64,000 bases of DNA, taken from the NCBI GenBank assembly GCA_023078555.1, contig CM041196.1, positions 10,310,985 to 10,374,984 of the forward strand, written 5' to 3'. The notes beneath the pieces were generated by a model, which was not told where the DNA came from, made no database searches, and saw only the letters and a program-made list of their open reading frames with translations. Below, in pieces: positions 20,806-50,200 of this stretch; the first letter of the stretch is position 1, and each line of letters starts with the position of its first letter. The translations under genes were made by a program, and so were the position numbers. This DNA is from Ulva prolifera (Eukaryota; Chlorophyta; Ulvophyceae; Ulvales; Ulvaceae).

Positions 20806-23800
20806 CTACGTCATTTCGTTCCTGAAGGACACCTCGAGCTTGAGGATGTTGGCCTCTGTGGTGGAGGTGCCACCCTGCCTCAGGCCATCCACCACCATGT
20901 ACAAGTCCACCTGCAGCCACATGCATGCCGTCACCGCAGCTCTCCTTTTTTTTAATTAAATAGTTTCATACTTTTACTTGTTTCCCTCCCTTTTTCGTTT
21001 TTTTACTTACCGTTTTGGGATTTTTTTAAATCTGTACAACCTGAAGCCAGCAAGGTCCATGATTCAGAAACGGCAAACGGAGCGCCACGTCGGGGCCTTG
21101 CAGGCACTGCCATGCGCATGTGGCGTTCCGTGATTGGATCAGCGCAAGTGGCGTTGCGCAAAGCTTTGTGTGTACATGCATACATGCATGCTCTGAGGCA
21201 TGATGTGTCAAGAGGTGGAGGGCACACACATCGCAGTGCGCCACAGCGTCCCTCTTAAGCCAAATCACAGCACAGGAGGTGCATTGGGGAGCTGCTGCAG
21301 GTATCAGAATTGAAAGACGGTAAACAAAGAGATTGCAATCAAATCGGGTGTAAAGGAGATGAGAGGGGCATGCCAGAGCTCTGCGAGGCCCAGGCTGGAG
21401 CGGCAAACACGAAGAGGGTGAATCACAAAGAAACGCGAGCATCCAAAAATGTATGCGTGTAAGGAAGGGACCAGACGTGAGCGCAGTTGCGCACATTGAC
21501 TGTCTTTTGCTGGCTGAGGGCCTCGTTGCCAAAGCACGCACGCACGCGGTTCACGGCGACATGCACGTCCACGCTGCCGCCGGCCGGCACGCTGCCGCGG
21601 ATCGGGAAGACAGATAGCCAGGGCGGCAGCATGCAGCCGCCCGCGCCCGGCGGCGCCTCGGCGCCGGAGGGCAGCGCCCAGCCGCGGAACTGGAAGGCCC
21701 CGTCGCCGTGGCCGTTATTGGAGATGGCGAATGTCGCCGAGTCGCCGTGGATCGAGAGGCTGGCACTTGGCAGCCGGATGTGCGGCGCCTGCGCAAAATC
21801 GTGTGCTCAAACTCGAGTCAGAAGTCTATGACAGGGCGTTGTGATCGCGCTCGGATCAGGTCCCTAACAACCTTATCAATCTCAGCCAGCGCGCACGAGA
21901 ACATGCGAATGTTCCCTCGCCCCGCAGCAGACACCGGCCTGAGACGCTAGCAAACGGCGCGCCATACATCATGGGGGTGAGACAGTGGGGCGGGGCCGGA
22001 GGCGCACGAGGCTAGAGGTGACTTCGGCGTGGAAGTCCGAGAGGATCTTGCCGACGTGGCGCCGGCGGCGCTTGTGGTCGGTGCTCGGCACGTCGGCGCG
22101 CAGCCGCGCGACCACCGGCTTGTGGTCGCTGTCGCACACCTCCGGAAGGCTCGTGTAGTGGCTGCAGCGCACGAGAAGCTGGTCCGGGCCCTCCCGGGTG
22201 ACGCCGGCCGTCGGGTACGGCGACGCCGCCGCCGGCACAAAGTCGAGCTCCGCGGTCGGTGTCTCGAGGCGCGGGAACGGGACGCTGCCTGCATGCATGC
22301 CGTCCATGCACACACCCCTCGAGCGCACAAACACGGCCGCGGGTAGCACTTCCGCACACGCCGCCGATGTGCGACCTGCGGCCGCATGCTGGGCACGCTG
22401 CGGGCCAGGTCTGTGTCGCCGTTCAGCATTTCCGGGGCTGCCATCCAGAATTTGGTCCTAAACAGTCGGACTTGTCTGGAGTGACCGCGCTCGACGGCCC
22501 AACGCTGTTGCAGGCGCACCTTTGAAGAACACGCGGTCGGTCCACGCCGGGATGCGCAGCTTCTCGCTCGAGTCGTACGCGAGCGGGCCGGGCACGCCCT
22601 TGTCGAACTTGTACGTCGGGGGGAACGTCAGCGCGGCCTCGCGCATGCCGTGGAAGACCGCTCCCGCGACCATCTGGCGGCGGGCCTGGTCGTGGGACTT
22701 GAGCGTCTCGAGCGTGCGGCCGGTCTTCAGGGCGCTGTCCACCGCCGACCTGCACACCCCCCCGGAGGCGCCTCAGGCATGCAGGCCCACCGGTTTGTGG
22801 CCTGTGGCCAGACGGCAGCGGCACCATGGTACGACACGCTTGCGATGCGTTGTCAGGTCGAGTAAATTTGGACGTACTCTGCCGATTCGTGAAGAGACAT
22901 TGACGCTGTGAGTAAACGGGACCACATGCCAAAGCGGAAAACCATCTGGACGCCGTATGCTTTGGTGCTCTGCCATGCATTGGCCAGAGCGCTTGTGGGT
23001 TTGCACCCCATGCTATGCCTGCGCACCTCGTCATGTCTATCCGGTAGTTGAAGTCCCCAGTCCAGACCGTCAGCGCCGCGCTGCGGAAGCCCAGCGCCGC
23101 GGCGTCCGGCCGCTCCAGCGCCGCTTGCACCGCCGCGGCGTCGCCCGCGACCCTCGGCAGCTCCGCAGGGTTCGGCAGGGACTCCTCCCGGCGGCTCGGT
23201 GGGGCCCACTGCTCCTGGCTGTTGCGCACCGCGAGCGGCATGGAGTGCACCCCGGCTTGGCCGGGGAGGGGCTCCCCGGTAGGGTTCTCCGTCGCGACGA
23301 GGGCCGGCTGGTACGGCAGCGCGAGGCGGCTGATGATCGCGCGGTAGTCAGCGTTGCGCTTGCGGACCGCACCCTACATGCATGAGCCTCATGCATGGAG
23401 GCGCTGTGCAGAGCATACCAATCTATGCGCCCATACCGGTACGACCGCTCGCGGCGGCCCTGTCCCCCAACAGGCCAATGCAACGCACAGCAGCCTTGCC
23501 CGTGCCATCGCACGGCTCCACGGTACATGGGAAGACATAGAAGGCTGAATGATCAGGCACGTCCTCTCGGGAATGCCCCTGGCGATCGGCTGGGGCGGCC
23601 GCACCTGGTGCGCCGCAAAGTGGCTGTTCATCACCAGCACCCGCTGCCCGAACAGCGAGAAGCTCACGGCCACGGCGCCCTTGTTCCCGCCAAACCCGCC
23701 GACCCCACACGCGACCACTCCGGTCGCAGTGTTCGCCACGTTCGAACACATCGCGCGCCGCGAGTACACGCACAGCAGGAGCCCCGACATCTGGCGCATC

Positions 23801-26800
23801 GCGATGCGCTCCCAGCTGTGGCGGTGTGTGCCGGAGCCGGAGAGGGGGCAGCCCTGGCCGAGGCACGCCGACATCTCGTCGCCCCACCAGCGCGCGTTGT
23901 GGTTGCCCTGCTCGGCGACTTTCTTGCCCATGACCTCCTTCACGGCGCCGACGGCGACGGAGGCCGTGCCCATCTCGATCTCTTGCAGGGCCACGACGAG
24001 GATGTCGATGCCGTCCGCCGACAGGTCCCTGCATGCAGCCGCCACTTTCTGACGATTTTGTTGAGTATTCTGGGCAACTTGGGTTGTTGACTTGATTTGT
24101 TGGGGCTACCGTGTTGCAGCTACGACCGGAAAGTAGCAGTCCGCCTGTGTGATCAGGGGGAGGCGGTCACCTGATGCTGCCGGGGTGTGGAGCGAGAGAG
24201 CATCGGTCAAGCATGTATGGAGCGGCGGATCTGTTTGTACGATTGGAAAGGTCAGCTCCAAAAAAAGAGAGTCGGACATATCTTCTCGGGAACTTCGGGT
24301 GCACTGCCGCAAAATACCATATTAACAATCGGCACGCGACCACATGGCTTTCATTAGCTAAGCACGTAGCTGATCGGGGACAGCGCGAAGGCGCCCCACA
24401 GAGCACACGCACGCAGCGTCCGACACAGACCGCCCAGGGGAGCAGAGGGCGATCCCCTCGGCCTGCAGGGGAGGCGGCGCACCGGTCGAGGTCGTCCGCG
24501 ACGCCAAGCACGCGCTTGATGCTGTCGCGGCCGGGGCGCCCTTCCCCGACGTTCCACGTCGCGACGCGCAGGCCGACGGCCACGCTGTCGACGCTGTCCG
24601 CGACGCGGCCGCCCCACACCTCGAGCGCGCGGCGCCAGCAGCCCTGCCAAAAGGTGTGGCCGGGGTTGACGCAGCCGGAGGGCAGGGTTTTCGGCAGCAC
24701 GCAGGCGTTGATGCCGGAGATGGCACCGGAGGCCGCGAGCGCGTACATCGTCAGGCCGACCTGCGTGTATGAGGAAGTCTTAGGAGATGAGTTCGTGGCC
24801 ACGCACAGCTGAACATCAACACGCCCGGCCACATGGGGCGAGACCGCCAACATCCGCAATGCGCTTGAGTGTGAAGGCTTGAATTGAGCAGCACCATGTG
24901 CGCTGTGGAGATTCATGCAGGGCAGAACGAGATGCTGCCGATGCTACACCGAGTTTGTGCTGGTGCTACCGAGGATGGAGTCCGAGGGCCTCCGCCGACA
25001 AGAAGCGCGTGACGCCTCTGCATGAACAGCAGCATGAAACGCAGGCGCGAGCGCCGCCGGCTGCTGAAGACGCCAAATCTTCACACCGTGACAACAGCGC
25101 GACCCTGTGAGCCCGTCGGCGCATGCATGGGGTGCGTACCTGCTGGAGGCTGACGACGGCGGAGGTGTGGACGTCCTGGAAGGTGACGCGGGCGCGTGTG
25201 CGGCAGTCGACCGCGACGACGCGGCCGCTCGCGAGGCCGAGCCACACGAGGCCCCCGAACGCCGCAGCGCAGCACACCGCAGACGCAAACGCGGCCTCGA
25301 ACTTGCCGTCGTGCTTCCCGCTCGCCGAGAACACCTCCACCACACCCTGCACGGCACAGCACACCTCCAGCGGGCCACAGCATGTGAGTTTGGTTTTACA
25401 ATCGGGGAAAGCGCTCTACTTCACCATTTTGTAGGCTGTTTTGGGGAGAAACATGCTTTCCCGCCTGCAGGATCTTGGACCGAGGTCGCATCATCACGAT
25501 TCACAGGCAGCGGCCCCTTCCCCCGAGGCAGGCTTTCGTCCATCACAATCCATTGTCAAATGTCGAGGTGGAGCACCGGAGCAGCAACAACAACAGCCGG
25601 GCCGGGCATGACCCGAGCTGCCCCCGATTTTCGGCTCAACTGCGGTGCTCAGTTCTGCGGGTGGCATGGGGCGCGGCATGCATGGGGCGCATGCACAGGA
25701 CAGCAGGGGCAGCGCACCACCTCGCTGATGCACCAGATGTGGTTGTCGGGGGTGCAGACGAAGAAGACGCGGCGGGCGGTGGCGGGGGCGGCGGCCTGCT
25801 CCTCTGCCTCAGGGTCTTCGCCACACTGCACACACAGCCACCGCACTGACACTCTCAGGAGATACTTCTCTACGAATGAATGCAGATGTACGAGCGTGGG
25901 AGCAGGGGGAGAGCTTTGAGGAGGTAGGAAGTTCAGCCCAGGCACAGCAGGCCGGCCCACGGAACCCTGGGGATGCTCTGCGTGATACAGGCACTCCGGA
26001 CAGGGCACGCCGCAAACCCAGGAGAAAGCTGTGGCCATTTATTCTCGATACACCATGAGGTTGCTTCACTATCGGATGTCAAATGTGGTATGCATCGCAG
26101 GGCACTCCAGGGCTGCCACATGCTCCCGCAGCTTTCAGTGGGAGGACAGGCGAACAACTGCTCAGACCGGAATGCGGCTAGAAAAGTCATGGAAATGTTC
26201 ATCCCGCATCGATCCAAACAGGGTATGGCTAGTATATGGCTAGTGAGAGTCTGCGCTGCAAGCGGCTGCAGCGCGCGACGCAGTGTTGGGTCCCCTTTCG
26301 GCATTTTTAGGGCTGCCGACCAGAAGTCAGGCCTAAATAGTTGGTATTGTTCTATGTGATCGGGCCCGAGGACCCAGCACTGGTGCGGGAACTGCAGAGA
26401 GGGGCCCCGGCACACCTCGTCTAGGGGGGCAGGGAGGGCCGCCAGCGGCGGCTGCCCGCCCTGCGGCGCCATCAGCGCCTCCATGCCCTTGGACAGCTGC
26501 CTTGACACAATCGACTTCATCCCCGAGAAGCCCCTGCACTCAACGGCGCACGCATGGATACCATGCACTCCCTGGCGGGTGCACGGTCACCAGGCGTGCT
26601 GCCATGCTGTCAGCCTGCCCCGGCCATCAATCCTGTGAGGTGATGACCATGCATGTGTGCTGGCATCAGCAGCGCCCTCGTGATGGCCGTGCTTCGCGGG
26701 AATTGAGGCGGAGTTCGTGATGATGGGGGAGCAGCTGCAATGGCAGGCTGTCGCGTTCGTTCACGTCCAAACCGTTCGTCTTCATTGCAGGTCCATCGCA

Positions 26801-29800
26801 CAGCGCTCCACCGGATGATCGACTGCAGATGAACCGCCAACAACCACTCCGTCAAGGCTCCCGTCAGTCAGCACAACAACGCTGCAGCGCAACAGCGCCA
26901 GCGAGCGATAGATGTCACCAGACAGAGCAGAGCTAGAGCAAGGCAGCCGCGGGGGTGCGCACTTTTTCGCAATCGACGACGTCGTCAGCGCGACCGTGTT
27001 GAGCCGCTGCGCGAGCCGCGCCTCCTCCCCCGGTAGCATGTCCTCCCCGGCCGTGCCGAGCGGCGGCAGCGGCCCCTCTGGGCTGCTCGCGGCGCGGCCA
27101 CCGCTGGTCGCGAGAGGCAGGCCGGCGCCGGGGTCGACGAGGTGGGGGGTGTCGAGGGGGCAGCCGGCGACGGCGACGACGCCGAGGAAGCGGCCGGAGA
27201 AAGCGTCCCACAGCGTCGCGCGGTTGCGGCTCGCCGCGACCACGATCTGCAGCGGCCAGGGTGCAGCGTGGGTGGGGGCGCGTGAGTTGGCGCACATGCA
27301 GAGGCCCGCACAGTGCTACAGCTGAGTCGCGACACGCACAGGGGCACAGAGGACTCGAACAAGCCAGGTGGAATCGAATAGCCGCGCTCGTCCGAGGCTT
27401 TAGCCACCAGAGCGAGAATGAGTCTACCCAGGCACGGGACTTGACAGTGACCATCATGGCCAAACATGGCAATGTGGCACGGAGTCGTCAGGGCACTGTG
27501 TGGGACAAGGCAAGTAGATATGCTGAAACTGGATTTTGAGGAAGATGTGGCATGACTTGAGCTGATCACTCTACCAGAGCCCACGGTGCGGGCGTGTGAA
27601 GGTCAACACACTGGGCTCTGCAGCAGGCCAGGGTCAGAGATGCATCTGGTCGTGGACCAGGGTTTCACAAGGCAGCAGCTCAGTAGAGAAGACAACAGCG
27701 CCGCCGCACAGGCACCACCCCGGCCGTGATGCAGAGCAGCGGCGCAGATTGAAACGAAGCGAGGACAAAGATGAGGCCCGGCGGCCGCACCTGCCCGCCG
27801 CTGGTGAGCTGTAGCGAGGCGATCGCGCCGTGTGCGCGCTCGCCGCTCGCGCGCCGCAGCTCGCACTGCGGCAGCGCGCGGAAGTCAAACGCCGTCGTGT
27901 GTGGCGCCGCCAGCGCCTCCGCCGCCGCCGTCGGCAACCAGCGCAGCGAGCCGGAGGAGCCGGCCGTCCACAGAGCGCCCCACGGCGTCGTCAGCGCCGC
28001 GACGACGGCGGAGCGCGAGTGCGCGCGCACAAGCAGCCGCTGCTGCATCGGCGGCTCGCCGGCGGCGCGGGTGGACGCCATGTTGACGTGCCACAGGATC
28101 GCGGTGCCGTCTGCATGCATGACGACACCGCTGACGCCGCGCGCTGCCGTGGCCTGCGGGAGAGAGGGACTGAAGTGACCGTGGCGGAGCCCTGTGCAGT
28201 GCACGGCTCATAGTGACCGTCATAGATGCTGCTCATAGTGACCGCCATAGATGCTGCTCGTAGTGACCGCCATAGATGCTGCTCGTAGTGACCGCCATAG
28301 ATGCTGCTCGCAGGCCTGATGCAGCATGCCCTCTTGCAGTGCATGCCCTCTTGCAGTGCATGCCCTCTTGCAGTGCATGCCCTCTTGCAGTGCACGGCCC
28401 GGAGGCTTCCGTGCAGTCTCGCAGACCGGCACCGCACCGTCGCAGCAGCTGGGCATGAGCAAGTTTCAATCAAGAGATGTGTCAAACCTCACACCCCACA
28501 TCATGTGCCATGCTCAGCACGTGCCAGGGCCTGAAGGTGTAAGGCCCTGGAGAGTCCTAGAGATTTAAGATTGTGCCTTTTATGGAGCGCGGCGGCCGGC
28601 TGGATCCCTGTGCCGGACATTTGACACAATCTCGGAGGTACATGCGGCACTCGCCGGCCGAGGCGGAGGCTCACCTCGGCGCCTCCTGTCGCAACCCCAC
28701 CACCGCACTCACGCCACAGGAACCGTTGTGCTTCCCACCGCCACACTCCTGGAGCCCCCACACCGGCTCCTTCCACAGCCTGCCTGCCACAATCCATGGC
28801 CACCCGCCACGGAGCGCTGTACACATCAGATCCACATGCATGGGACCGAAGGGGGGCGCGCCTCTGTGGCCGGAGATCAGCATCTCGGTGTACGGGCACA
28901 CATGCATGGCTGTGACCGCGTTGGCCTGCACTCGCTCCGGCAGGCACTCGCGGCCGAACGCGCTCATCGGGTCCTCCCCGTTTCGCACCAGTGGCCACTC
29001 GCTCGGTGGATCCTGCACGGCAACGCGCTAATCATGCCGTGCTGAACAGGGTGCGCGACGGACTGCCGCCATCGAGCGCGAGGGTGACCACACGCGGGGA
29101 CTCCTAGGATTGCAGACCGGAGGGAAGGGGGTGCATGCAGCGGGGGTCACAGGAAACCCCGCGGCTGTGACCATGTGGTGCCTTACACGGTGCGGGTCAG
29201 CGACGCATGCATGCGGATTCCGATCGCCTCGACATCACGGCAAATTGACGCGCCACACAAGAGTTTGCGGATTCCGGATTGCAGTTCGGCTCTGAAGGCA
29301 AGCCACACGGGCATTGCAACCGGGACTGCGAGCACGGCCCCTCGGGAGGGGGCCACGCACGCTGGGCTTGTAGTCCGCGCGTGCAAAGCACAGCATGCCG
29401 CCGGCGCGGGTCGGCGCAGCGAGCAGCGCCTCCTGAACCGCGCACAGCCGCTGCACCGGCGCCGCGGCCGCGGCGTTGTGTGGCTGCAGGCGCACGTCAA
29501 TGCGCAGGGTGTTGGCAGGGGCGTGCCGGCGCCAGGAGTTCGCGGCGAGAACCGCCTCGTCATCATCCGCCGCGGTCGGGGAGCCTTCGGCGCTGCCGGG
29601 GCCTGCAGACAGCATCCCCCTCGTTTCTCCATGCACCGAGCCCGCTGATTGCGGGAGGTAAACTTATGTGTGCATGCATGCCGCCGTGCTGACGCCCACA
29701 GAGGTATTGAACACTGCACCGGCAGCATCGATGCGATCGAATGAGTGCCAGGGCGCCCCAACGCACACACTGCGCCTGGCGGTCACAGGAGGAGCGGGCA

Positions 29801-30734
29801 TGTAGCCCCACAGCTGCCGCGCGGCGCCGCCATGCACACCCTGCTGCATCGTTCAACCCCCCACACGTGCGGGGGTGTGGCTGAAGAACCCACTGAGAGC
29901 CCTCAGCATGGTCTGGGCTATTGGGGGGCTGCCTGCGTGGCTGTTAAGCGTTGCAGATGACCGCTGTGGCTGCCCGGGGCAGCCACTTGTGCTTGTTGTG
30001 CTGGTGTGGCCTCACATGCGGGGCAACAGCGGCTGTGTGAAGAAGGCGAAGCGTACCATCCGCATACTCTGCGACAGAGACACCGACGTCCTGGTTGACT
30101 TTGACTGGGCTGCTGTTGGGTGAGGGGACTCTGGCGGTGCTTGGTTTCGGCTCCGGTGTCGCAGAAGCAGGCACAGGAGCTGGTGGCTTGCGAGCTGGCT
30201 TTGGGGGTGAACATGTTGCTGCTTTGGGCAACTGCAAGTGGGGACCTGATGTACACACGTTGGTCACAGGGGCGTACAGTCAGCAGTGTCGAGCATGGGT
30301 TCTCGCACCGCTGGTTTTGGTGCCTCTACAGGCTTTGCAGTTGTGCTTGCTGGCTGGTTCCCTGCAATCTCTTGAGGCACATACGCCAGGAACTGTTCAC
30401 CGACTGTGGGCGTTGGCAATTGCAGTCCAGTCGTCGGATGCAATGCCTTGTCCACAAATTCCTTGGAGAAGACGCAGCCGACCTGCAGTAATGAAACGAG
30501 CCGGAGCGCGCGCGAGAACTGGGCTGGCGTGAGGCCCCCGGGCTGCGAAGCGGTTGCAGCCTCCCAAACCTGGCTCAGGTTGGTCTTCAACAGGCCGGTG
30601 GAGACAAAAAAGTCGACGGCTTCCTTTCCGCTGACGAGACCGTCGCAGTTGGTGTCGGCCGCGCGGAATATGTCCAGCACTGTGCCAGGGAAGTATGCTC
30701 CGCATTGCAGAACACCTTCGAGTTCACTGCCCAT
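20806..30734 (-). CDS. FRA3: EH-domain / WD40 / type II inositol polyphosphate 5-phosphatase (FRA3-type)
   Basis: Seventeen minus-strand exons: 30309-30734, 30057-30231, 29361-29602, 28862-29012, 28713-28783, 27791-28153, 26963-27246, 26416-26533, 25721-25825, 25140-25346, 24483-24760, 23605-24028, 23027-23373, 22520-22749, 22008-22288, 21495-21788, 20806-20910. They sum to 4,101 nt (1,366 aa) with every phase compatible. Residues ~1-105 are an EH domain (EF-hand loop DTNCDGLVSGKE; conserved Trp in LSQVWEAA). A Pro-rich linker follows, then a WD40 propeller (LISGHR, GTAILWHV, RATLWDAF, DNHIWCISE) and the 5-phosphatase: TWNVGEG, ALQEIEMG, NSHFAAHQ, TGDFNYRID, FPPTYKFD, IPAWTDRVFF, CDSDHKPV. 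A beta-rich C-terminal domain ends the protein. It should remove the 5-phosphate of inositol lipids or inositol phosphates. Plant FRA3 homologues have WD40 plus phosphatase; the EH part is unusual. Exon 4 ends at a GC donor. The phosphatase part is certain, the EH linkage less so. Confidence 0.88.
28207..28310. repeat. 25-bp tandem repeat in an intron
   Basis: About four copies of a 25-bp unit (CATAGATGCTGCTCGTAGTG plus ACCGC), with single-base variants, in the fifth intron of the EH/5-phosphatase gene. Seen directly. Confidence 0.92.
28324..28391. repeat. 17-bp tandem repeat in the same intron
   Basis: Four exact copies of GCATGCCCTCTTGCAGT, 13 bp after the 25-bp array. Each copy holds a TTGCAG word that looks like a 3' splice site on the plus strand but not in the transcript direction. 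There are no unique spacers, so it is not a CRISPR array. Confidence 0.95.
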
Positions 30735-33700
30735 CCCGGACTTGACAGCTGCAAACAGATACAGCTTCTGAATGTACAACGCATAGCAAGCCTTACAAAT
30801 TCTGCCTGGTGCAGGATCATGTCAACGCTTGTCGCTAGCGTCTACAGGTTGCGAGGAATCGGGCATTATCCTGGCCGACGGCACATATACCATCAGCTAC
30901 AGCGATAAATAGTAGACACAACATATCTCTTCTTTGGTGAGGGCGCACATGCGACGAGGGGCTCTGTCTAGGCGTAAGAGCGCATTTGTCAGAACCGGTG
31001 TGACAGGACCTCTTCACAGGGCGTGCAGACAGCGCAAATGCGCATTGAAAATATTAACCTCCAAGTGTCAGGTACAGTCAAACGTCTTGATGCGTCAATC
31101 CGCTAATCCGCCACAATGGATCCAAGCACATATTCCACCATGCTCTGACCAACACTACCCGCAGCTGTCGCCTTGCGCTTCGGCCACTTTCAACGAAAAT
31201 TGCTGTGGTAACAATGTTTGGTCTATCGACTACCAGTGCTTCGCCAGTACTTCTCGCATAGTACGGTGTTCCCCGACTAGTGGCTGCAGGTGGAGCAGAT
31301 CGGACAATTCGGTCTGCCTCGTGTAGTGTGCCTACCCACTGTGGTCACAACAGAATAGTAAACCCATGCCACATCTGATTCGCATAGCCCTCTGATGATA
31401 GATAGCCAGCCATCTACTTCACGTACCGCTGAAAAACATACCAGCGTTGATACTGGTGCACGCGCGAATTCGAAGGTGCACGGGCCGCACGGCCCACTGG
31501 GTGTCGTTTGTGTTGTCGATGATACTGGGCCGCAGCTGCACAGCTACATCATAATCGCATCACCTGCAGCTTAAGTGGCCATATTGTGGGTCCGGTGGAG
31601 TCGGGTTCTGGTAGCGCTGCATCTACAAGGGACACTGACATCAGGTTGTGCACATGAGATGGACTGACGGGTTCACCGGGCGCTGCCAATGTCATACACA
31701 TCCCGATGCCTTCAGCTACACGATCTGAGTGGCGTGGCAAGATCGCAATGGGTGCGTGGAAGCCGCAGTTGATGCGAAGGCGGACATAGCGATAATGCTC
31801 GTGATTCGTAGGTCGAACAGCTCTGTGGCCTGATCTACAAATTATGACACTTCCGAAAGTCTGCCATAACTGCTTATTACTCAAAGCTCAGCGACACGCT
31901 TCCTCGTCGGCGTATTTCGATCATCGCACGGTATTCTGCTTCTGGATATAGTGATTCGATACCTCCAATGCCTCATCTGCATTGCCTCCTGTTCACCACC
32001 GGTCAAGCTACGCCACTTCAGTACCCCTGTGGTCTCACGTTCCGATCCCGCCGTGCCGCACACTTACCGCTTTTGCTTCTGTGGCACGTGATGTACTCTG
32101 CCTTGAAGCTGACCTGCGGTGACACTGCCGCAGCCAGAAACTCCTGCTCAGGCACCCCTTTGCAAGACTGCATTTGTCCTCATGATGCACCACCTGGGCG
32201 CCTGCACGCGCACCCACCCACAATACATCCAGATACGTCCAGGTTGACCGCACTCACTTTCCATAAGCACGATGCCGCTGTACACGTAACGACATCGACT
32301 CGCTCAAGACACTGCAGCAATGCATGCGAGCCTGCGCGGTGGCTGCCTACGGGCTGCACACGGCTCTGGTGGACGCCAGCCGCGTAGACTGGGGCACGGC
32401 ACATGCATGAGGGTCTGTGCGGGGAGGCAAGTGCGATGTGCTGGCGGTGCGATGCGCACTCACGCCGACGTGGCGGGAACTGCGGTGTGTGAAACGTGAA
32501 GTGCGTGCGAGTCGTGCAGATATGAGCCTGCCAGCGGAAAGACGTGGGGCTGCCGCAGCCCAGGCACCCCGGAGCTCCTGCCTCACGGGCGTTCAGAAGT
32601 GCATTTAAATGTCGTGCATGCGTGACCATGCATGGGCTGCACACAGCATCGACGCCTCGCGGCCTTCGCCTTTGTGACACAGGCTGTTGAGGCGTCAGCA
32701 AGCAAGCAGGAAGTGGATTCACTGGACGCCATGCACAACGGATGTGGCGCGTCCGGCGCGAGAAGCGCGCCAGCGGCTCCTGCTCTTGTAGGGAGAATGC
32801 AGTGACTGCGTTGGCACGGCCCCATGCATGTGCACTTGCACAGCGGCCCCATGCATGTGCACCTTCACAGCGGCCCCATGCTGTGCGTTACAAGGACACA
32901 GCGGCCCCATGCATGTGCACCTGCACAGCGGCCCCATGCTGTGCGTTACAAGGACACAGCGGCCCCATGCATGTGCACCTGCACAGCGGCCCCATGCTGT
33001 GTGCAGCCGGCGCTGTGGGCGTACAAGGACATAACACCGGCCCAGCCCAGCGCTCCCATCCCGCAGCCACAACCAGCGCAAGCGCAACCCCAAGCGCCCA
33101 CAGCGGCGCATACAACTCCCTGTGAGGGTCTGCATGCTTATTGGTGGCGGGGGGGTGGTTGGGGGCTTCCACAGGGGGGCAGCTTTTGGCTGCTCCCGTG
33201 GGTGCTCAACCTGCAGATCACGAGACAGACGGACATGTCGAAAGAGATGTACATGTCACCTGGTGATCCATCACTACAGCTGCGTCATAAGCATTGATTC
33301 GCCACGTTCAGATGAGGGCAACGCTGCAGTGGCGTCTGCCCTGTGGCGGCCGCACCTGTGTGTTTGAACGCCTCATGAGGTCGTGGCTGTGTTGTGTGCC
33401 TCCAAATACAAAGCGCCGTTCAGGATAACAGTACTCCGAGTCATGTTGACGATAGACAGGAAGCGTTCTGCTACTCCACTACAAGCAGCAACAATCAGCA
33501 CTGCTACTCGTAATGTGTCAGTCACAGCCCAATCTCCTCAGATCGCGGTCTGATAGTCCGACCTTTGCGGCACCGCATGCGTAACAGCATGTGCCCCTGC
33601 AGGCATGCCATGGCGTGACACAGGATCGCACGAGCTGCAGGCATGTTCCCCGGCAATCAGAGGCTGGACCTGCATGCTAAGGCAGCGATGGTGGATGGCC

Positions 33701-34350: not shown

Positions 34351-35112
34351 CTACTTCCCTTGCTTCTGATCATGGCTCTGCATGCGCTGCTTTCGTGATC
34401 TGGCCAGTACGGGCCTGAGTATGCCGCAACATGCAAGTCTTTCAGACCTGAACAATGCATGCCAAACGCAGCCGACGCACACCTGCTTTCCAAAATCGAA
34501 GGGCAGATACTTGTACTTGATCATGTGCTTGATCTGCCGTCTCATTGTGATGCCCACCAGCACGAGCCAATACATCAGCAGAATAGGCCAGAACACGGGT
34601 ACGTCCAGGAAAGGGAAGAGTGTGGCTGTCAGACCAATGAGGAATGCCCTTGAGGACATCATCCTGCATCGAGAGCGTGTCATGTCCGTCTGTGCGTTGC
34701 ACGTCGCGTTGCGCCAGCGCCATACCGGACAGCAGCTGAAGCAGGCAGAGCAACAAGGCATCTGAGACACTCGCACGCACTCGGTTCAGCAGCACAGCAT
34801 GAACGCAGCACACCAGAATTTCATCTCCTGCAGCCTGCGCACAAAAGGCCGGTATTCATCGTCGCTTCGGCTCGGCAGCACAGGCCCATCGAGTTCGGGA
34901 TCCGTTGATGGCGAAATGAATCCGAGCAACAGATTCAAATTGTATATACCAAGCGCATACGTGATGATGTAGAAACCTTTGATGGAGAAAATGCGAACAG
35001 CATACAGTGCAACCAGTGCGCCCAAGCCCAGCCATCGATACAGCTTGAACGGAGCTGACTTGTCCAAAAGCTGCTGGAACTTGATATTCACTTTCTTCGA
35101 CCACTCTTCCAT
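34351..35112 (-). CDS. RER1: RER1, Golgi-to-ER retrieval receptor
   Basis: Exons 34814-35112, 34483-34663 and 34351-34386 (299+181+36 = 516 nt) give 171 aa. RER1 sorts ER membrane proteins back from the cis-Golgi through their transmembrane segments. Family hallmarks: [18 protein letters not shown] (first membrane hairpin), the [14 protein letters not shown] turn, the [17 protein letters not shown] cytosolic loop, [17 protein letters not shown] and [16 protein letters not shown]. Four membrane segments are visible, as expected. The last exon encodes only 11 residues rich in Gln and Lys. Donors are GTGTGC twice, both introns in phase. Length is close to plant RER1 (about 190 aa). Confidence 0.96.
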
Positions 35113-35170
35113 AGCTTACGTGCTACACAGGCGCGCCATGCGATCTTGCAGTGCACTAGCTAGACATGTT

Positions 35171-39000: not shown

Positions 39001-42000
39001 CGCACGGCGGCCGCCTCACACGCCGCAGCCTCATTGCCCTCGAGCTGCGCCACCGCATCAACGCCCGCCTGCAGCTCCGCGTCCAGCGCGGCGGACCAGC
39101 CCTCCGGCAGCTTGCGCACGACGACCGCGACGTGGTCATGCATGGCCGGCATGCATTCGGTGAGTATGTGCACCGTCAGCGTGAACACGCGCCGCACGAG
39201 GTCGAGCGCGGCCGGGCGCTGCTTGCGGTGGCGCATGCCGTACCCGGCCGCGAGGTCCCCCAAAGCCACAAGCTCGGCCGCGGCGGCATCGGCGTCGGCC
39301 CCGGCGTCGGCTACGATGCGCGCAAGCACCGCGGACGTGGCGGCAGTCACCGACGCGGCGTCCGCGTCTGCTTGCGCACCGATGATGGCCACAGCCCCCG
39401 CCGCAGCGCCTGCGGCTACAGGCGGTGGTGAGGCGGGTGCCTTGAGAATGGCTAGAAGGGCCTCTGTGGACTCGGAGGGGCTTCCGGGGGGTAATGGGGT
39501 CACGGCGAACAGTGCCCCGAGAGCTAGGGGCGCGTTGCGTGCGGCGTTGTTGGACTTCGATTGCAGCAGCTGCGTGATCGATGTGTGTAGTTGGGTGTCG
39601 GTGGAGCCTCCAGTCTCTAGCGCCCTGCAGAAGCACGTCTCCAGTCGAAACAGAGGCCCACAGCATTGCTCCTGACGTCAGCTGAGGTACCGCTCAGCAT
39701 GTGCTGGTGGCAATAATGCGGCTATGCCTGCCGTTGAGACCGCTCAGCATTCGGCCCAAATGCGTGGATTGAAGTTGATGGGCAGGCAAAGATGGCTGTA
39801 GTCTGCTGGCGGTGAGGGGGGTGCAGGTGTATGTCGGAATCATGGACGCTTTGCGGGAAGCTCTCGGCAAGGCTGCCTCATGTACGCGCCATCGCAGAAG
39901 GCCTGAGCCACAACAGAAGCGACCGGCGTCTCCCGCACACCGTCGATCAATGGCCCATCAGACACAGCGAAGCACAGCGAGCTCGACAGGAGAGCATCCT
40001 GTTATTGCTCTTTGACATTGATGCACAATGGACGACTTCAGATCTGCGACGCCTGGCTGAAGAACCAAACAAAGAATGATCGTTGAGCAAGACGACACAC
40101 AGTGGACATCTACGACGTGGCCGGTGCGGCCGCATTTTGAAAGGGGACGACTCACAGTGGAGCATTTCCTAGCACTGCCTAGGACGCCTTGCACACTGCA
40201 TCCTCCCTGCGCATGCATGCCGACGCACAGCACAGCACAGCACAGCACGGGGCGAAGCTGCGCACCAGTTGATGAAGCCGCCAAAGGCCGCCTGCACCGT
40301 GGCCAGAGGCGTCTCATTGCCGAGCTCTGGGACGGCGCTCCAGTGCGTCGAGTCCAGCGCGTGCTGCAGCGCCGCCATGCTGTGCTGCGCCATGCTGTGC
40401 TGCGCCGTGCTGTGCTGCGCCGAGCTGTGCTGCGGCGTGGCGCCCAGCGCGCACAGCTCGAGCTGCAGCAGCGCGTTGCCGGGGTGGCGCTCGAGCAGCT
40501 TGGCTGGGAGCATGTCCGAGAGGCGCTTCTGGAGGGCTGCGAGCTGGCTGCTGCTGGTGGCCTGGGGCGCCGCGGTGGCCACGAGCGCGCGCCGGTGTGC
40601 GTGCTCGTGGGCAAGGGCATGCACTGCGAGCGCCTCGAAGCATGGCAGGTGCTCTGGCGAGGCGCCGTCAAGGCTCGGCTGCACAGCACAGCATGGCTAT
40701 CACGCACAGCAAAGCATGGCTGACCTTCGTTGTCACAACAAATAAGACAGCAGAATTTGATGCTAGTATGGATGGCACATGCATGTCAGGTCGAGTGCTT
40801 CAGCAACCCTGTGCCGGACGGCCGACCGCCGCAGCATTACGATCAGAACAAAGCAGCACCCCCGGTCCTGCCGGGACACTCCACACCTGGAAGAACTGCA
40901 TTACGGAAGCATTTGCACAAGGGAGCAGGGGCACAGCATCCCAGGGAGACGACACCTCCGCAGCCCCCCTGTAGCCACAGCCCACCCTGCACAGCTGGTT
41001 CCACACAGTCCCGCATGCATGCAGTCGCGGTTATGACACGATCCCCCCGTAGCCACAGCGCACCTCGCACAGCTCCCGCAGCGGCCGCTCCGCCTCCAGC
41101 TCCTCCACGAGGTCCAGCGGCCATTGCGCGGCGGCGGCCGCCGCCGCGGCGCGCACGCCCGCGTCGCTGTGCCGCAGCGCGCCCCACAATAGCGCGAGCG
41201 CGTTCTGGGCCTGCTCGGCATGCTCGCGTGCGCCGGGGGCGCCGTGCGCGAGGGTGAGGAGCCACTGCGCGCGTGCCAGCGGCGGCTCCGGCAGCTTGGG
41301 GCGCACGGCGGCGATGACGCGCCACGCGCCATACATGTCCAGAGCCTCCTGCAGAGTCGCCGTGTACGTGTTGACTTGCTGAAGTAGCGCAGGCAAGGTG
41401 GGGGCAAGCAACGAATCCGGGTTTTGCAGCGCAGGCATCCGAGGACATGTGGAAATACAGCGCGGTCGTGGAGGAGCGGCGAGGCCGTTCTGGAGCTACG
41501 TAATCAGGCGAGCGCCTCTGAACGAGGGGGCCGATGCGTCCACGGCCTTCGGAATGGGGTGGGCATTCCATGATTGATCGCATGTAACTGAGCTCAGGAG
41601 CCCGCACAGTCTGGCGTGCTACAAGACGTCAGCGCATGAGCTACTCAGCAAAGCTATTCAGATCAGATGGCGGCAGCCCGCCTGCTGGCACATTGCGCCG
41701 ATCGCCTCCAGCCCGGTCGCAGCCGCCGCATCGTCATCATCGCGCAGCGCCCCATGCATCACACTCACGAGGTCCGCCGCTTTGTCCGGGGACTCCCTCG
41801 CCACGGCCACGGCGGCCGCCGCAACGGCGCGCCGCAGGCTCACGGCGCCGGGCCCGTCGCCTCCGCGCCCGGCCGCCACCGCCTCCGGGGACGGCGTCTC
41901 AAACGCGAGCAACGCGGCACGCAGCCGCTGGTAGCCACGGCCGGTCGCGAGCCACAGCGTCAGCAGCATGCGGATGCCCAGCGCATGCATGAGCGGGCCA

Positions 42001-43732
42001 TTGGCCTCCGCGAGGAGCTGCGCGCAGACCCCGAAGAAGGGCCCGTCGAGGTAAGGGGACTGTGCGGTGACTGCCAAGAGCACGAATGGGAGGAGGAGCG
42101 TGGCCGGGTGTGAAGCACCTGCGGCACTTGAGGCGGCGGCCAGGACGGACTGAGCAGTATCAAGGAGGAAAGGGAACAGCGAGATGATGCTGTCTGGTGC
42201 TGCGTATGCACACGCTGCGAGCGATTCCGCGGCTGCGAGAGCGCAGTCGGGGTCCGGGTGACGGAGGAGTGTGGCTACATGTGCTACAAGTAGCGGCTGC
42301 GGTGAAAAGGGTAGAGGAGCGTCGCTGGGAGAGCAGCGGGCGTGGGACGGAGGGGTATCTGCGTCGGAGGGGCAGCAGCCTGGCGGCTGTGGCCACAGGG
42401 ACTGCGTGGACAGTGCTGCGGAGACCGCTGCGAATCTCTCCTGCTTTGCACCGGGCGGGATGGAGGCTGCGGCGCGGTGGGTGAGGGAGCGGAGGAAACG
42501 GATCGTGGCTGAGGTGTGATGAACGCTGTGCACATGCAAAGCAAGTGCACTGTGGGCTTCAAGGGAGGGGTATGGCAATTGAAGGGCCGTGGGCTGTGGC
42601 CACCCAGTGGGGATCAAGCGGAGAAGGGACCGCGAGGTCTCTTGATTGGATGCCGGTGCGGGGATAGAGAGGTGGTGGATCAGCTGAGGCCTGATGCAGC
42701 TGAGGAGCGCGGTGGGGCTTTGACCTGGCTGAGAGGAGAGAGCCTGGAGCATGATGCACAGCATCTGCAGCATGGGACCTTCCGCTGCTGTGGCTGAGGC
42801 AGACACGACGCCTGCGACAAGGTGTGTGATGGCAGAGTGCAGCATCTGTGCGTCTGTGCCCGCCTTGGGCGCAGCTGCGACGGTGGCAGCAGCGAGGGTG
42901 AGCCGGTGCGGAGCGCCAGGAACAGAGCACTTTGGAAGCATGGATACCATCGCCAGGAGCGCGCGAGACTTGAGCGACGCTGGGCTTGAGGGCCACTCGG
43001 GATACTGGAGAAGATCGAGGAGGTGAATAGGGACGTCTGAAGCACAGCTGACCTGATTGACGGTCTCCAGGTGTATGACCATGCACGACACCACAGTTGG
43101 GAGGCATAGCGGACAGAGAGATGCAGCCCGCGCCAAAGCAGATGTTGTGGCCTGAGAAAGGTCATTTCCACCTGATAGGCATCGTAGTATGAACGGCGTC
43201 AAATGGGAGAGGCAGGCTTCTGTTCGGTCGCGCGACGCTTGCGGCGAAGCAAGGCGCATAAGCAAGTTCTGCAAGCAATCTCCCAGATGGAGCTCCAGAT
43301 GGGGTGCAGTCTCAGCTATGGTCAGGAATGGGTCCCCTGGATCGAGATCTGCGAGGACTGCTGAAGTGGCGCTGAGAAACAAGTCTGTAATGGACGATAG
43401 CAGCAGCTGCGCAATGCTGGCCGCTGTGACTCTTGCGATTCCCACAAGGAGGCTAATAGCTTTCACATGATACCCCGGTGTGTCCAGTACTGTTGACAGC
43501 ACGTCCAGAGCTGCGGAGACAACCACCTGCATTTATGACTTGTGGACCATATCAGTGACACTAAGCTGTCCAGCAACAACATCGAAGAATTTCAGCACAC
43601 CTCATCACGGCAGCTCAACAGCTTGTTTAAGCGATCGAATAAATCCGTAGAGCCACCGTTCGTGGTGAGCTGCTGCTTCACGGCCGCGTACCGCAAAGGC
43701 ACAGGGATGCCCGCAAGGCGATCGATGTCCAT
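36008..43732 (-). CDS. RST1: RST1/focadhesin homologue, large ARM/HEAT-repeat protein
   Basis: Seven minus-strand exons, 43601-43732, 41682-43526, 41064-41378, 40266-40678, 38820-39624, 38147-38644 and 36008-37819, total 5,820 nt (1,939 aa) in one frame; Arabidopsis RST1 is about 1,840 aa. The protein is nearly all helical repeat. Diagnostic parts: a DUF3730-like stretch (LLPFVLLAVTAQSPYLDG; LGIRMLLTLWLATGRGYQRL), LEAIGAMCQQ followed by YGAWRVIAAV as in focadhesin, and a C-terminal ANWAAALQHHM segment as in RST1. In plants RST1 works with RIPR as a cofactor linking the cytoplasmic exosome to the Ski complex in RNA decay; that role is inferred. Exon 2 ends at an apparent GC donor. The acceptor of exon 7 was chosen for phase among several candidates. 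Exon 4 holds a 15-bp tandem repeat. Confidence 0.86.
40373..40437 (-). repeat. 15-bp tandem repeat inside RST1 exon 4
   Basis: Four copies of a GCTGTGCTGCGCCAT-like unit encode repeated S-x-A-Q-H pentapeptides in frame. The period is a multiple of three, so copy-number change would not shift the frame. CACAGCACAG repeats also flank the exon on its 3' intron side (40227-40248). Confidence 0.9.
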
Positions 43733-46129: not shown

Positions 46130-47199
46130 GGTCCCACAGAGGTCCTTCGAATATTCCGCGTCGCGAGTTTTCGCGATTGCGATCTTGAATGCATGTGCAC
46201 AAGCACTACCCCAAGCACGCATGCGCCCCATTTCAAAAGCGCGTGCTCGAGGCAACAGGCAATATGACGGTCTCTTTGATCTTCGAATTCGGTCGTGCTA
46301 CTCGTGCTGGTAGCCATCGTCCACCTCGTGTTCATTTATACGTCGACCCGGAACTAGATATGTCCCAAAACCAACCCACCGGTTCCGGATCTCAAGGACA
46401 AGGTAATCCACCATCATCCCACAATGTTCCTTCTACTAGTACGACGACAGGTGCAACTTTGAACCAGTTATTGCCAAAAGGTACTCTCTCTTTGCCCGAG
46501 TTTACTGGTACGCCTGAAACTCGTGTGCATGCATCGCACTTCTTGGCACGCGTCGAACGAGTTTTCGCATTGGAACGTTCACTTCCCGAGTATGCCAAGC
46601 TAGTTGCTGTGCAAAGTTGCTTTCCGCTGAGTTCGCCAGCATCCACGTGGTATCAGCTCAAGTTTCATGAGTTCTCGACGCTAGATGATTTTGTCGAAGC
46701 TTTTAAGAAGCGTTTCGGTGCCTCGGACATTGACACATCGTATTTGCGTCGCCAGTTTCGCCGCTTCCGTCAACATGACGGAGATACAGTGAACAAGTAT
46801 TATACAGCGTTATTACAGTTGTCGTCGCAAATTGCGTTGAACGGTACTGGTCTGTCCGACAGCGACATCGTGGACCAATTTGTCCACGGTCTCAAACCGG
46901 CATTGTCCGACTTGGTTTTCCACGAGCAGATCCGTGCTGGTCGCGCATACACGCTTGATGAAATTGTTAAAATTGCTGAAGACATTGAGCGCAGCGAACG
47001 CCTGAAGAATCGAAAGATTCCTGCCGGTGCTCCCGGTAAGAACGTGGCCCCGCAAGCCAATGCATTGCAGAAAACTGGCAAGTACAGTGCATACCACAAG
47101 AGCACATCGCATAATACTGACGATTGCAAGCGAGTGATTCAGTTGAAGAAAGAGGGTAAGTGGCGTGGTAAGCCAGTTGATAAAGCCCAAGCGAATTAA
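46108..47199 (+). CDS. gag: Gag polyprotein of the Gypsy element (with a preceding in-frame ORF)
   Basis: The main ORF runs from the ATG at 46189 to the TAA at 47197-47199 (336 aa). Residues ~90-260 form a retrotransposon Gag domain: a LPEFTGTPE start, WYQLKFHEFSTLDDFVEAF, YLRRQFRRFRQHDGDTVNKY and DQFVHGLKPALSDLV. Near the C-terminus, YHKSTSHNTDDC resembles a CxxH...HxxxxC knuckle, but the first Cys is Ser. A 26-codon ORF from the ATG at 46108 is in the same frame and ends in a TGA directly followed by the gag ATG (TGAATG). Either gag starts at 46189, or translation restarts or reads through there. An internal Met at 46360 would give a shorter Gag. Confidence 0.85.
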
Positions 47200-47207
47200 C
47201 TTTCGCT

Positions 47208-50200
47208 ATGCTCGGGCGAGTTGTTTTCGAGGCTCGGAAACAACCGTCCCCCGAACTCGAACACGAGTTCGCGCCCCTTGAGGGTGCCTACGGTGATGAT
47301 GATCTCGTCTATGACGTGTCTGAATTGCCCTCGAGTGATGCTAAGCACACTCCAGCCCGTCTCTCTAGAGACTGGGGCTCGAAGCCTCCCGTTCGGGACG
47401 CGAAGCCTTCGGGCGCTCATGGCCGCAAGGCTATGCTCAGCAGAAAGGAGAAATCCACTGCTTCAGAGCTTGGTGATATCACCATTTGCTCTTTGCCTTT
47501 AGGCAAGAGGTCTATGACCTTCGAAGGGCAAGCACTCCATGAGTATTGCCTCTTCCTGGCCGACACCGGCGCGTCACACTCTTTCATTTCGAAAGAATTC
47601 TGTGACACAAGAGGAATTCGCTTTCGCGAATATGCCTCTTCGGCCAAGCTGGCCAATGGCTCGTCCACGCCGATTATCGGACAGGTTCACTCCATGTGGG
47701 TGCAGCTTGGGCCGTTTCGAGCGAAACACCATTTCTTGGTTGTTGACATGCCACAGTTTCATGCCATACTCGGCATGGATTTCATGGATGCGCACCATGC
47801 GGTGCTAGCTCCACACGCACGTACTATGCGCCTTAATTACAATGGCAGCACTGTCGTGCTTCACGCACACTCTGAGGATTCTGTCCCAGAATTCGAGTCC
47901 GATTTCATCGAACTCTGTACGTTTCAACAGTTTGCGGCAGACGTGAAACATCTGCCAGCTGAGCAAGTGCAGCAAGCGTTCATGGCCTGTGTAACGCCCG
48001 AACTGCGCGCTGTCACAGAGGATCAAGCTCCTGGAGCTGACGATCCGGAAATGCGCAAACTACTTGACGAGTTCAAAGACGTCTTGGTGCCTCAAATTCC
48101 TGGCGGTCTGCCACCTGTGCGGACCGCTGCAGATGGGTCCATAATCGAACACACGATTGAAACCGCGCCGGACGTTACGCCTTCGTCACGTCCTCCATTG
48201 CCGTTTACGGCTGAGGAACATACGATAATTAAGCAGTACATTGCTGATTTCATCGCGAAAGGCTGGATCAAGCCATCCCTGTCACCATGGGCTGCGCCCG
48301 TGCTGTTTGTGCCTAAGAAGCCTGATCCACTTACAGGCAAACGTTCCTGGCGTATGGTCATTTCGTACGTCAAATTGAATTCGAAAACACTCAACAGGAT
48401 TGCGTACCGGTTGCCGCGTACTGCAGACCTGCTCACACGCATGTCTGGTGCATGTTACTTCAGCAAGCTGGACTTGCTCGATGGGTACTATCAAGTCCGA
48501 ATGAAAAAGGAAGATATACCTAAGACTGCGTTCACCACGCCGTATGGGAACTTCGAGTTCCTTGTCATGCCTATGGGCTTGTGTGGTGCAGCGTCAACGT
48601 TCCAGTTTCTGATGGACGATGCGTTCAGGGATAATGTACGGCTGCCTTCGGGCCAGTATTTGTCCTTCTTGCATTTCATCGCAATCTATCTTGACGATGT
48701 TTGCATATTCAGTCGCTCTCGTGAAGAGCATCTGATGCACATTCGCGCTGTTTTACAACGGCTGCGTGAACGGCAACTGTACGTTAAGCCGTCCAAGTGC
48801 ATGTGGCTGCAGACTACGATCGATTTTCTCGGTCACATTGTCAGCGCCGATGGCATGGCCATCGACCCTCTCCGGGGGGAGGCACTACAGCGTTGGCCTG
48901 AACCAAACAATGTGTCTGAAGTGCGCTCTCTGCTCGGGACCTTCGGGTTCTGGCGAGCGTACATCAAGAACTACGCAGATATCGCTGCTCCACTCACAGA
49001 GCTCACTAGCAAGAGCACGCCATGGTGTTGGGGCGACCGCGAGCGAGCTGCCTTGTGCAAGCTCAAGCAAGCAGTCCTCGACGCACCAGTGCTAATGCAC
49101 CCAGACACATCGAAACCTTTCTTTGTTGTCACAGATGCATCTAATTATGCAGTTGGTGCATCCCTCGAACAGGAGCCTGTTCCAGAGCAAAGACGTCCCA
49201 TAACGTTCTTCTCACACAGCCTCAACCACGCTGAACGAAATTATCCTGTGCACGAGCGAGAGCTCCTCGCTATCGTGTTGGCACTACGTGTCTGGCGACA
49301 CTTTCTATACGGATCTGAGTTCAAAGTCATTTGTCAGACTGATCACAGGCCGCTGCAACATTTCATGACACAGGCGTCGCTTTCAGCGCGTCAGGTCCGT
49401 TGGCAGCAGTTCCTGTCCGAGTTCAACCTCACTGTCAAGTACATTCCGGGTGACTCGAATGACTTCGCTGACGGTCTGTCACGTCGACCAGATCTTAAGC
49501 TAATGATTATTGGTGCAGTCGCGCCATACGATAACTGGCTCAGTCGCATTCAGACTGCAGTCAAGCAGAACAGAGAGTCTTACAGGCTCTATAAACGAGC
49601 GCTGCAAGGCCCAGTGCATGTCTCGAAGACCTCGCATTACGCGCTGCACAACGGTGTATTGTACTACGTCCGTGACAAGGTGCATGCGGTGTACGTGCCT
49701 GACCAAGGCCTGCTGCGTCGTTCGTTGCTGTCGGAGTATCACGACTCCCCATTGGCCGGACATTTCGGTTGGGAAAAGAGTTATCATGCTATTTCGCAGC
49801 ATTATTATTGGCAGTCTATGCGCCAAGACATGAAAGACTACGTCTTGCGGTGCACGAAATGTCAATTGAACAAGCCTACAGTTCAGCCGAAGCCTCCGCT
49901 TCATCCGCTGGAGGTACCGAAAGGACCTTTCCATACAATCACACTCGATTGGTTGAAAGGACTTCCTACGACTGCTGAAGGTTACGATTCTGTACTGAAT
50001 ATCGTCGACAAATTCAGTAAATGGGCTATCATTGTCCCGATTGCTACGCATTCGACCACTAAGGACACAATCCGCATCCTGTGGGAGCGAGTCTTTAGCT
50101 GGGTTGGTTTACCTGAAGTGATCGTTGGTGATCGCGACACCAGGCTGACTGCGTCGATGATGCAAGCTCTCAAGAGCTTCCTTCGAGTCGAATTACGACT

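Follow-up and report, generated by a model that had tools for sequence, protein, structure and literature searches.

The type II WD40 inositol 5-phosphatases of plants (FRA3 and At5PTase12-14) have their 5-phosphatase domain behind an N-terminal propeller, and the available text of a study of FRA3-type proteins of land plants places WD40 domains at the N-termini, mentions no EH domain and is silent on the domain order in algae (PMC6562803). A 64-kb stretch of the Ulva prolifera genome (C1:10310985-10374984, hereafter the window; the genome comprises 88.9 Mb in 44 contigs) includes on its minus strand a gene of this type in which an EH domain and a Pro-rich linker stand before the propeller. 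We consider it likely, from the sequence, that the EH domain, the linker, the propeller and the 5-phosphatase belong to one gene and one fused frame, with which a shorter isoform may coexist. The arrangement is probably a new domain fusion, in which a new module stands at the N-terminus of a FRA3-type enzyme. Neither an EH-5-phosphatase or EH-FRA3 fusion nor a link between the TPLATE complex and a 5-phosphatase was described in the titles and abstract openings of the open-licence papers searched, and similar predicted green-algal proteins may already be on deposit.

The 5-phosphatase of animal synaptojanin is tied to EH and SH3 partners (Eps15, intersectin) in trans, by means of NPF motifs that bind the EH proteins, and yeast has relatives of this system. 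To our knowledge, a clear synaptojanin is lacking in plants and algae. The Ulva protein resembles synaptojanin in its 5-phosphatase part, whose top matches among solved structures were 1i9y (by its entry a phosphatidylinositol phosphate phosphatase, and taken here to be a synaptojanin) and human synaptojanin-1. It differs in that Pfam found no Sac1 domain at E values up to 0.1 across the 1,312 amino acids, in that the EH domain is present in cis, and in that the 1,312-amino acid chain includes no NPF motif. Lacking the Sac1 domain, the protein is reminiscent of synaptojanin and is not a member of that family.

Two plant systems are also related. AtEH1/Pan1 and AtEH2/Pan1, of the TPLATE complex, share with the Ulva protein an EH1.1-like domain, the NPF-pocket Trp, the Ca loop and a C-terminal Pro-rich loop, but AtEH/Pan1 has two EH domains. 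In the Ulva chain Pfam finds one EH stretch, which is followed by the phosphatase, and an AtEH-like gene exists separately on another contig, C7; with its one EH domain the protein is not an AtEH/Pan1. According to the available text of a study of Arabidopsis, SAC9 binds SH3P2 and restricts phosphatidylinositol 4,5-bisphosphate [PI(4,5)P2] (PMC9436410). Here too a phosphatase of phosphoinositides is linked with an endocytic SH3 protein, but SAC9 belongs to the Sac catalytic family, and the same text mentions no EH domain for it (PMC9436410).

Gene model

The gene was modelled from reading frames, splice sites and domain homology. On the minus strand it begins at 30734 and comprises 16 exons with a total of 3,939 nt, coding for 1,312 amino acids and ending in a TAG stop at 20806. 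The calculated mass of the fused chain is 138 kDa, and that of the phosphatase alone 118 kDa. An initial annotation of this DNA had described an EH exon, a Pro-rich exon and a set of WD40/5-phosphatase exons on one strand, in a 17-exon model whose length was a multiple of three. The strand, the coordinates and the phases hold, and the length is again an exact multiple of three, with 16 exons in place of 17. Exon 1 has phase 0, exon 2 leaves phase 1, and phase 1 is also that of exon 3 (29361-29602), with which the phosphatase frame begins; by itself the phase match is weak evidence, as it would occur by chance in one third of cases. The features of the gene are as follows.

30309..30734, minus strand: exon 1 (426 nt), with the ATG, the EH domain (residues 22-111, including W57 and the EF loop residues 27-38) and the start of the Pro/Ala/Lys-rich tail
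30232..30308, minus strand: intron 1 (77 nt), with donor GTGCGA and acceptor TTGCAG
30057..30231, minus strand: exon 2 (175 nt), Pro-rich linker with PPKPAR at residues 151-156
29603..30056, minus strand: intron 2 if the gene is a fusion, or intergenic gap if there are two genes (454 nt), no TGTAA
29613..29615, minus strand: in-frame ATG, from which a phosphatase of its own or a shortened one could be translated (MLSAGPGSAEG...)
29361..29602, minus strand: exon 3, stretch leading up to the WD40 propeller and its beginning, without a separate Pfam match
28862..29012, minus strand: exon 4, propeller (PF23754 stretch 307-394), followed by an apparent GC donor at 28861
27791..28110, minus strand: exon 5, propeller (PF23754 stretch 307-394)
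26963..27246, minus strand: exon 6, propeller region according to the gene model
26416..26533, minus strand: exon 7, propeller region according to the gene model
25718..25825, minus strand: exon 8, propeller region according to the gene model
25140..25346, minus strand: exon 9, propeller region according to the gene model
24483..24760, minus strand: exon 10, end of the propeller and start of the 5-phosphatase, TWN at residue 745
23605..24028, minus strand: exon 11, 5-phosphatase (PF22669), LQE at 784 and NSH at 904
23027..23373, minus strand: exon 12, 5-phosphatase, GDFN at 1017
22520..22749, minus strand: exon 13, 5-phosphatase (PF22669), PAWTDR at 1094
22008..22288, minus strand: exon 14, end of the 5-phosphatase, SDHKP at 1157
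21546..21788, minus strand: exon 15, possible ASH-like domain (PF21310, weak, E 0.14, below the cut-off)
20806..20910, minus strand: exon 16, C-terminus and TAG, with the first TGTAA 615 nt beyond

All donors are GT with the exception of that of intron 4, a GC donor at 28861 (GAG/GCGCGC, window 28856-28871), which we infer because the propeller segment GHRDG (GHR/DG) must stay in frame. Several acceptors of the gene read GCATGCAG. A splice model generated automatically, with the phosphatase codons as training set, was set aside; since its codon table penalises exons with a low G+C content at third codon positions (GC3), it invented short 5' exons and retained the EH exon only in part. Intron 4 also includes two adjoining tandem arrays (window 28206-28394), one with 4.2 copies of a 17-bp unit (100% matches) and the other with 4.2 copies of a 25-bp unit (97%), and a further tandem array is located upstream of the gene (32817-33001), where it can be described as 2.8 copies of a 58-bp unit (99%) or, alternatively, as 6.6 copies of a 27-bp unit.

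The EH domain

The EH domain that had been assigned to exon 1 proved genuine. Exon 1 alone scores 25.2 bits with the Pfam EH model (cut-off 22), while inside the whole 1,312-amino acid chain the score is 20.5 bits, slightly under the cut-off. Independently of the Pfam score, a phmmer search of solved structures placed 6yeu/6yig at the top (E 5.3e-12, residues 22-111), followed by Eps15 and intersectin. According to the available text of the corresponding study, 6yeu and 6yig represent EH1.1, which is the first of the EH domains of Arabidopsis AtEH1/Pan1, and the AtEH1 mutation W49A abolishes NPF binding (PMC8144573). The aligned stretch extends over the part for which that study describes a C-terminal Pro-rich loop in EH1.1, and W57 is aligned to chain residue 51 of 6yeu, which was taken as W49 on the assumption of a two-residue numbering offset. 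The first EF loop, DTNCDGLVSGKE (residues 27-38), has the canonical Ca ligands, and judging from the sequence both the NPF-pocket Trp and the Ca-binding loop are conserved. The EH frame has the highest codon score among the six frames of exon 1. A single-sequence fold of this exon had a mean predicted local distance difference test score (pLDDT) of 49.3, too poor for a fold search, with helices at residues 18-30, 36-46, 54-62 and 70-84.

The Pfam EH search of the U. prolifera genome scored three candidates and reported this locus alone. A protein search of the same genome revealed a second EH gene at C7:3095500-3095766, for which EH1.1 again heads the solved structures (E 6.7e-10) and whose Pfam EH score, 21.0 bits, is just under the cut-off. 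A possible second EH-like segment further on in the C7 gene was recognised by eye only, and Pfam does not report it. The existence of this AtEH-like gene, together with a GC3 of 0.64 for the EH exon that is close to the 0.58 of the C7 gene, would be compatible with an assembly chimera or a relic, in which the EH piece would be a decayed AtEH/Pan1 fragment lying beside FRA3 by chance. On the other hand, the EH frame is intact and retains the pocket Trp and the Ca loop, the two EH domains share 42% identity over 62 residues, which argues against a recent copy of the C7 gene, and the window includes no N and sits within a 12.7-Mb contig. We regard such an accident as highly improbable.

The WD40 propeller and the 5-phosphatase

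The part of the protein that follows is, as predicted from its motifs and domains, a FRA3-type WD40 inositol 5-phosphatase with intact catalytic motifs. The whole chain matched PF22669 (Exo_endo_phos2; E 4.2e-57, 194.3 bits) and PF23754 (IP5P C-F beta-propeller; E 4.8e-12, 45.9 bits, cut-off 27), so that both domains of the FRA3 family are over their cut-offs. The model of the single WD40 repeat stayed below its own (20.8 versus 27 bits), as did PF21310, the model for the possible ASH-like C-terminus. The sequences TWN, LQE, NSH, GDFN, PAWTDR and SDHKP, which we take to be the usual catalytic motifs of 5-phosphatases, are all present in the chain. At least three other 5-phosphatase loci are found in the genome, around C4:6168100-6170086, C20:71011-75086 and C1:7185672-7186895.

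The linker and the join between the two parts

In the EH frame P/A/K/S/T/E/V make up 81% of exon 2, compared to 49% and 47% in the other two frames, and the composition of the exon 1 tail (70%) is thus continued. An equal share is reached by 0.19% of the 35,355 stop-free 58-codon windows of the 64 kb, a figure that is descriptive and not a formal test, as the set of residues was picked after viewing the sequence and the windows are overlapping ones, with exon 2 among them. Past the exon 2 donor, in the same frame, the share drops to 49%, that of Cys/Trp/His/Phe/Met/Tyr/Ile/Arg/Leu rises from 9% to 41%, and a stop is reached after 37 codons. Intron 1, which separates the two exons, has 77 nt, and spacings of 66-98 nt are seen between consecutive CCT exon matches in this genome. 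The linker includes one PxxPxR site, PPKPAR (residues 151-156), presumably a class II SH3-ligand-like motif.

The splice from exon 2 to 29602 that would make one chain is probable on the evidence of the splice signals and frames. Scoring matrices were made from the phosphatase introns further downstream (12 donors and 13 acceptors). By these, the exon 2 donor at 30056 (GTACGC) ranks among the best 1.8% of the GT sites on the minus strand, and the acceptor at 29602 among the best 1.2% of the AG sites on that strand. Exon 2 was also joined to every AG located at least 40 nt into the gap, in a survey of direct joins as opposed to joins through internal exons with a further donor, and the products outside the phosphatase frame were short or rich in Cys, His and Arg and did not look protein-like by eye. 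Three weaker AGs (29662, 29644 and 29626), as well as one within exon 3 (29584), likewise reach the phosphatase frame.

TGTAA is a poly(A) element in late-branching chlorophyte algae according to the available text of a published study (PMC1868727), and it may serve as a marker of gene ends in this genome, where 19 of 23 light-harvesting (LHC) and CCT genes have it at no more than 260 nt past the stop. These 23 calibrator genes, 14 LHC and 9 CCT, were obtained from the loci with a match reaching the end of the profile (16 of 30 LHC and 9 of 30 CCT loci) plus three 5-phosphatase loci, with L036 excluded for an internal stop; L015 and L018 (LHC) and L006, L009 and L011 (5-phosphatases) were dropped since by eye they had no recognisable C-terminus after the match. 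The element is present within 500 nt of the stop in 21 of the 23 genes (23 of 28 if all calibrators are retained), while the reverse-complement word occurs within 500 nt in 10 and within 260 nt in 3 of the 23. The minus strand of the 454-nt gap between exons 2 and 3 (29603-30056) has no TGTAA. The absence of the element would be expected in an intron and unusual at a gene end, because a gap of this kind would lack it by chance in 90% of cases and gene ends mostly carry it.

These data bear on the possibility that the locus consists of two head-to-tail genes, one coding for a small EH/Pro-rich protein of about 157-240 amino acids (stop at 30264 or 29944) and the other for a FRA3-type phosphatase starting at an ATG at 29615. 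With two genes, the 3' end of one and the promoter and 5' end of the other would have to fit into the 328 nt from the nearest EH stop (29944) to the ATG, and the next TGTAA on the minus strand, at 29187, lies 756 nt beyond that stop and within phosphatase intron 3. The strong exon 2 donor would in addition be left unused, with the reading frame continuing into the stretch of altered composition described above. On the upstream side, the neighbour that was recognised is Rer1, whose end is at a distance of about 3.6 kb. In favor of two genes, the phosphatase domains are complete without the EH part, a step in GC3 falls exactly on the boundary, and an ATG precedes exon 3. The initial annotation had named a start codon of its own just before 29602 as a finding that would speak against a fusion; one half of this is present, in the sequence only, in the form of the in-frame ATG (29613-29615) situated 13 nt upstream of exon 3, and as a consequence the phosphatase may have a transcript of its own or a shorter one. 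Taken together, we consider two genes unlikely.

The same ATG could be used in a different way. Alternative promoters could produce both a long EH-phosphatase and a short phosphatase starting at 29615, and recruitment through the EH domain would be optional; this possibility overlaps with that of a single fused gene. The ATG and the acceptor are only 13 nt apart and in the same frame, as such an arrangement would need, but nothing positive was found for a promoter in intron 2, for which no promoter search was made. We consider alternative promoters rather unlikely, if compatible with the fusion.

The fusion put forward in the initial annotation is the best-supported gene model, in view of the splice sites, the gap without TGTAA and the lack of a protein-like rival join, and it is a fusion that we infer, with the in-frame ATG and the GC3 step on the other side of the balance. 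The step is pronounced, from 0.605 in codons 1-200 to 0.922 from codon 202 to the end; in blocks of 50 codons the values are 0.68, 0.76, 0.42 and 0.56 before the join, and 0.86, 0.84 and then 0.88-0.98 after it. For comparison, 69 of the 72 fetched loci were used (L001, L003 and L007, which are exon loci of this gene, were excluded), and in the resulting 23 multi-exon groups of LHC, CCT and 5-phosphatase genes, at least two of which merge neighbouring LHC genes, the GC3 span was 0.16 or less in 21, 0.23 in one and 0.47 in one. The group with the span of 0.47 is a CCT gene on C6 that has a 168-nt 5' exon with a GC3 of 0.46, followed by exons with 0.79-0.93, and this low-GC3 5' exon makes the step one that has a precedent but is rare. 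Two separate genes could give rise to such a step, and so could a fusion of recent date or a position on the shoulder of a GC-rich block.

Several further observations weigh against the fusion. Codon usage does not establish exon 2 (score -4.5, with one reverse frame at +1.3), and the acceptor of intron 1 scores poorly with the matrix of 13 phosphatase acceptors. The absence of TGTAA from a gap of this kind has, as mentioned, a chance probability of 0.90, and the signal is neither universal nor confined to gene ends: the first TGTAA of the gene itself is found 615 nt after 20806, that of one LHC gene is at 892 nt, one CCT gene has none within 1.4 kb, and the element is present inside phosphatase introns 3 (29187) and 8 (25400). 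Scans with the phosphatase domain gave no relative among 4 pattern stretches in viral contigs or 29 in prokaryote genome contigs, and a scan with the EH domain gave none among 8 pattern stretches in viral contigs.

Possible role of the fused protein

If the parts of the protein act as their relatives do, the EH pocket would dock the enzyme on endocytic proteins bearing NPF motifs, possibly with the help of anionic lipid. The linker may contact an SH3 protein through PPKPAR, and at the endocytic site the phosphatase would take the 5-phosphate off PI(4,5)P2, during coat maturation or vesicle uncoating. One chain would then do in cis what animal synaptojanin and its EH and SH3 proteins do in trans, and by this analogy a synaptojanin-like role is plausible from such parts. 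Proteins that are fused in one species often cooperate as separate proteins elsewhere. If true, the EH-FRA3 fusion would be a direct pointer to a 5-phosphatase acting at plant and algal endocytic sites, and it makes testable whether land-plant FRA3 or 5PTase12-14 meet AtEH1/Pan1 or the TPLATE complex. As to the docking partner, the EH1.1 domain of AtEH1 binds the double NPF of SCAMP5 according to the available text (PMC8144573), and as to the enzymes, Arabidopsis has 15 5-phosphatases, few of them characterised, as stated in the available text on SAC9 (PMC9436410). A broader proposal, which we put forward tentatively and as somewhat doubtful, is that a green-algal lineage fused an EH domain of the AtEH/Pan1 type and an SH3-binding linker to FRA3, whereby a synaptojanin-like enzyme arose that finds clathrin/TPLATE sites by itself, and that FRA3-type phosphatases act with TPLATE across the green lineage.

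Surroundings of the gene

Other features recognised in the window are the following.

34354-35115, minus strand: Rer1 gene
41661-43532, minus strand: frame with a Focadhesin/RST1 domain
1138-1908, minus strand: queuine tRNA-ribosyltransferase

The window also includes a Ty3-like retroelement on the plus strand (46189-50684), composed of a gag frame and a 1,167-amino acid frame with protease, reverse transcriptase, RNase H and integrase domains. Two words are over-represented with respect to the expectation from base composition, GCATGC (110 copies versus 20 expected) and GCATGCAT (20 copies versus 0.9 expected). Elsewhere in the genome LHC genes are abundant, with 38 exon-level matches, and the HSP70-family matches on C3 and C5 form closely spaced pairs on opposite strands, with equal-scoring fragments at C3, C5 and C34.

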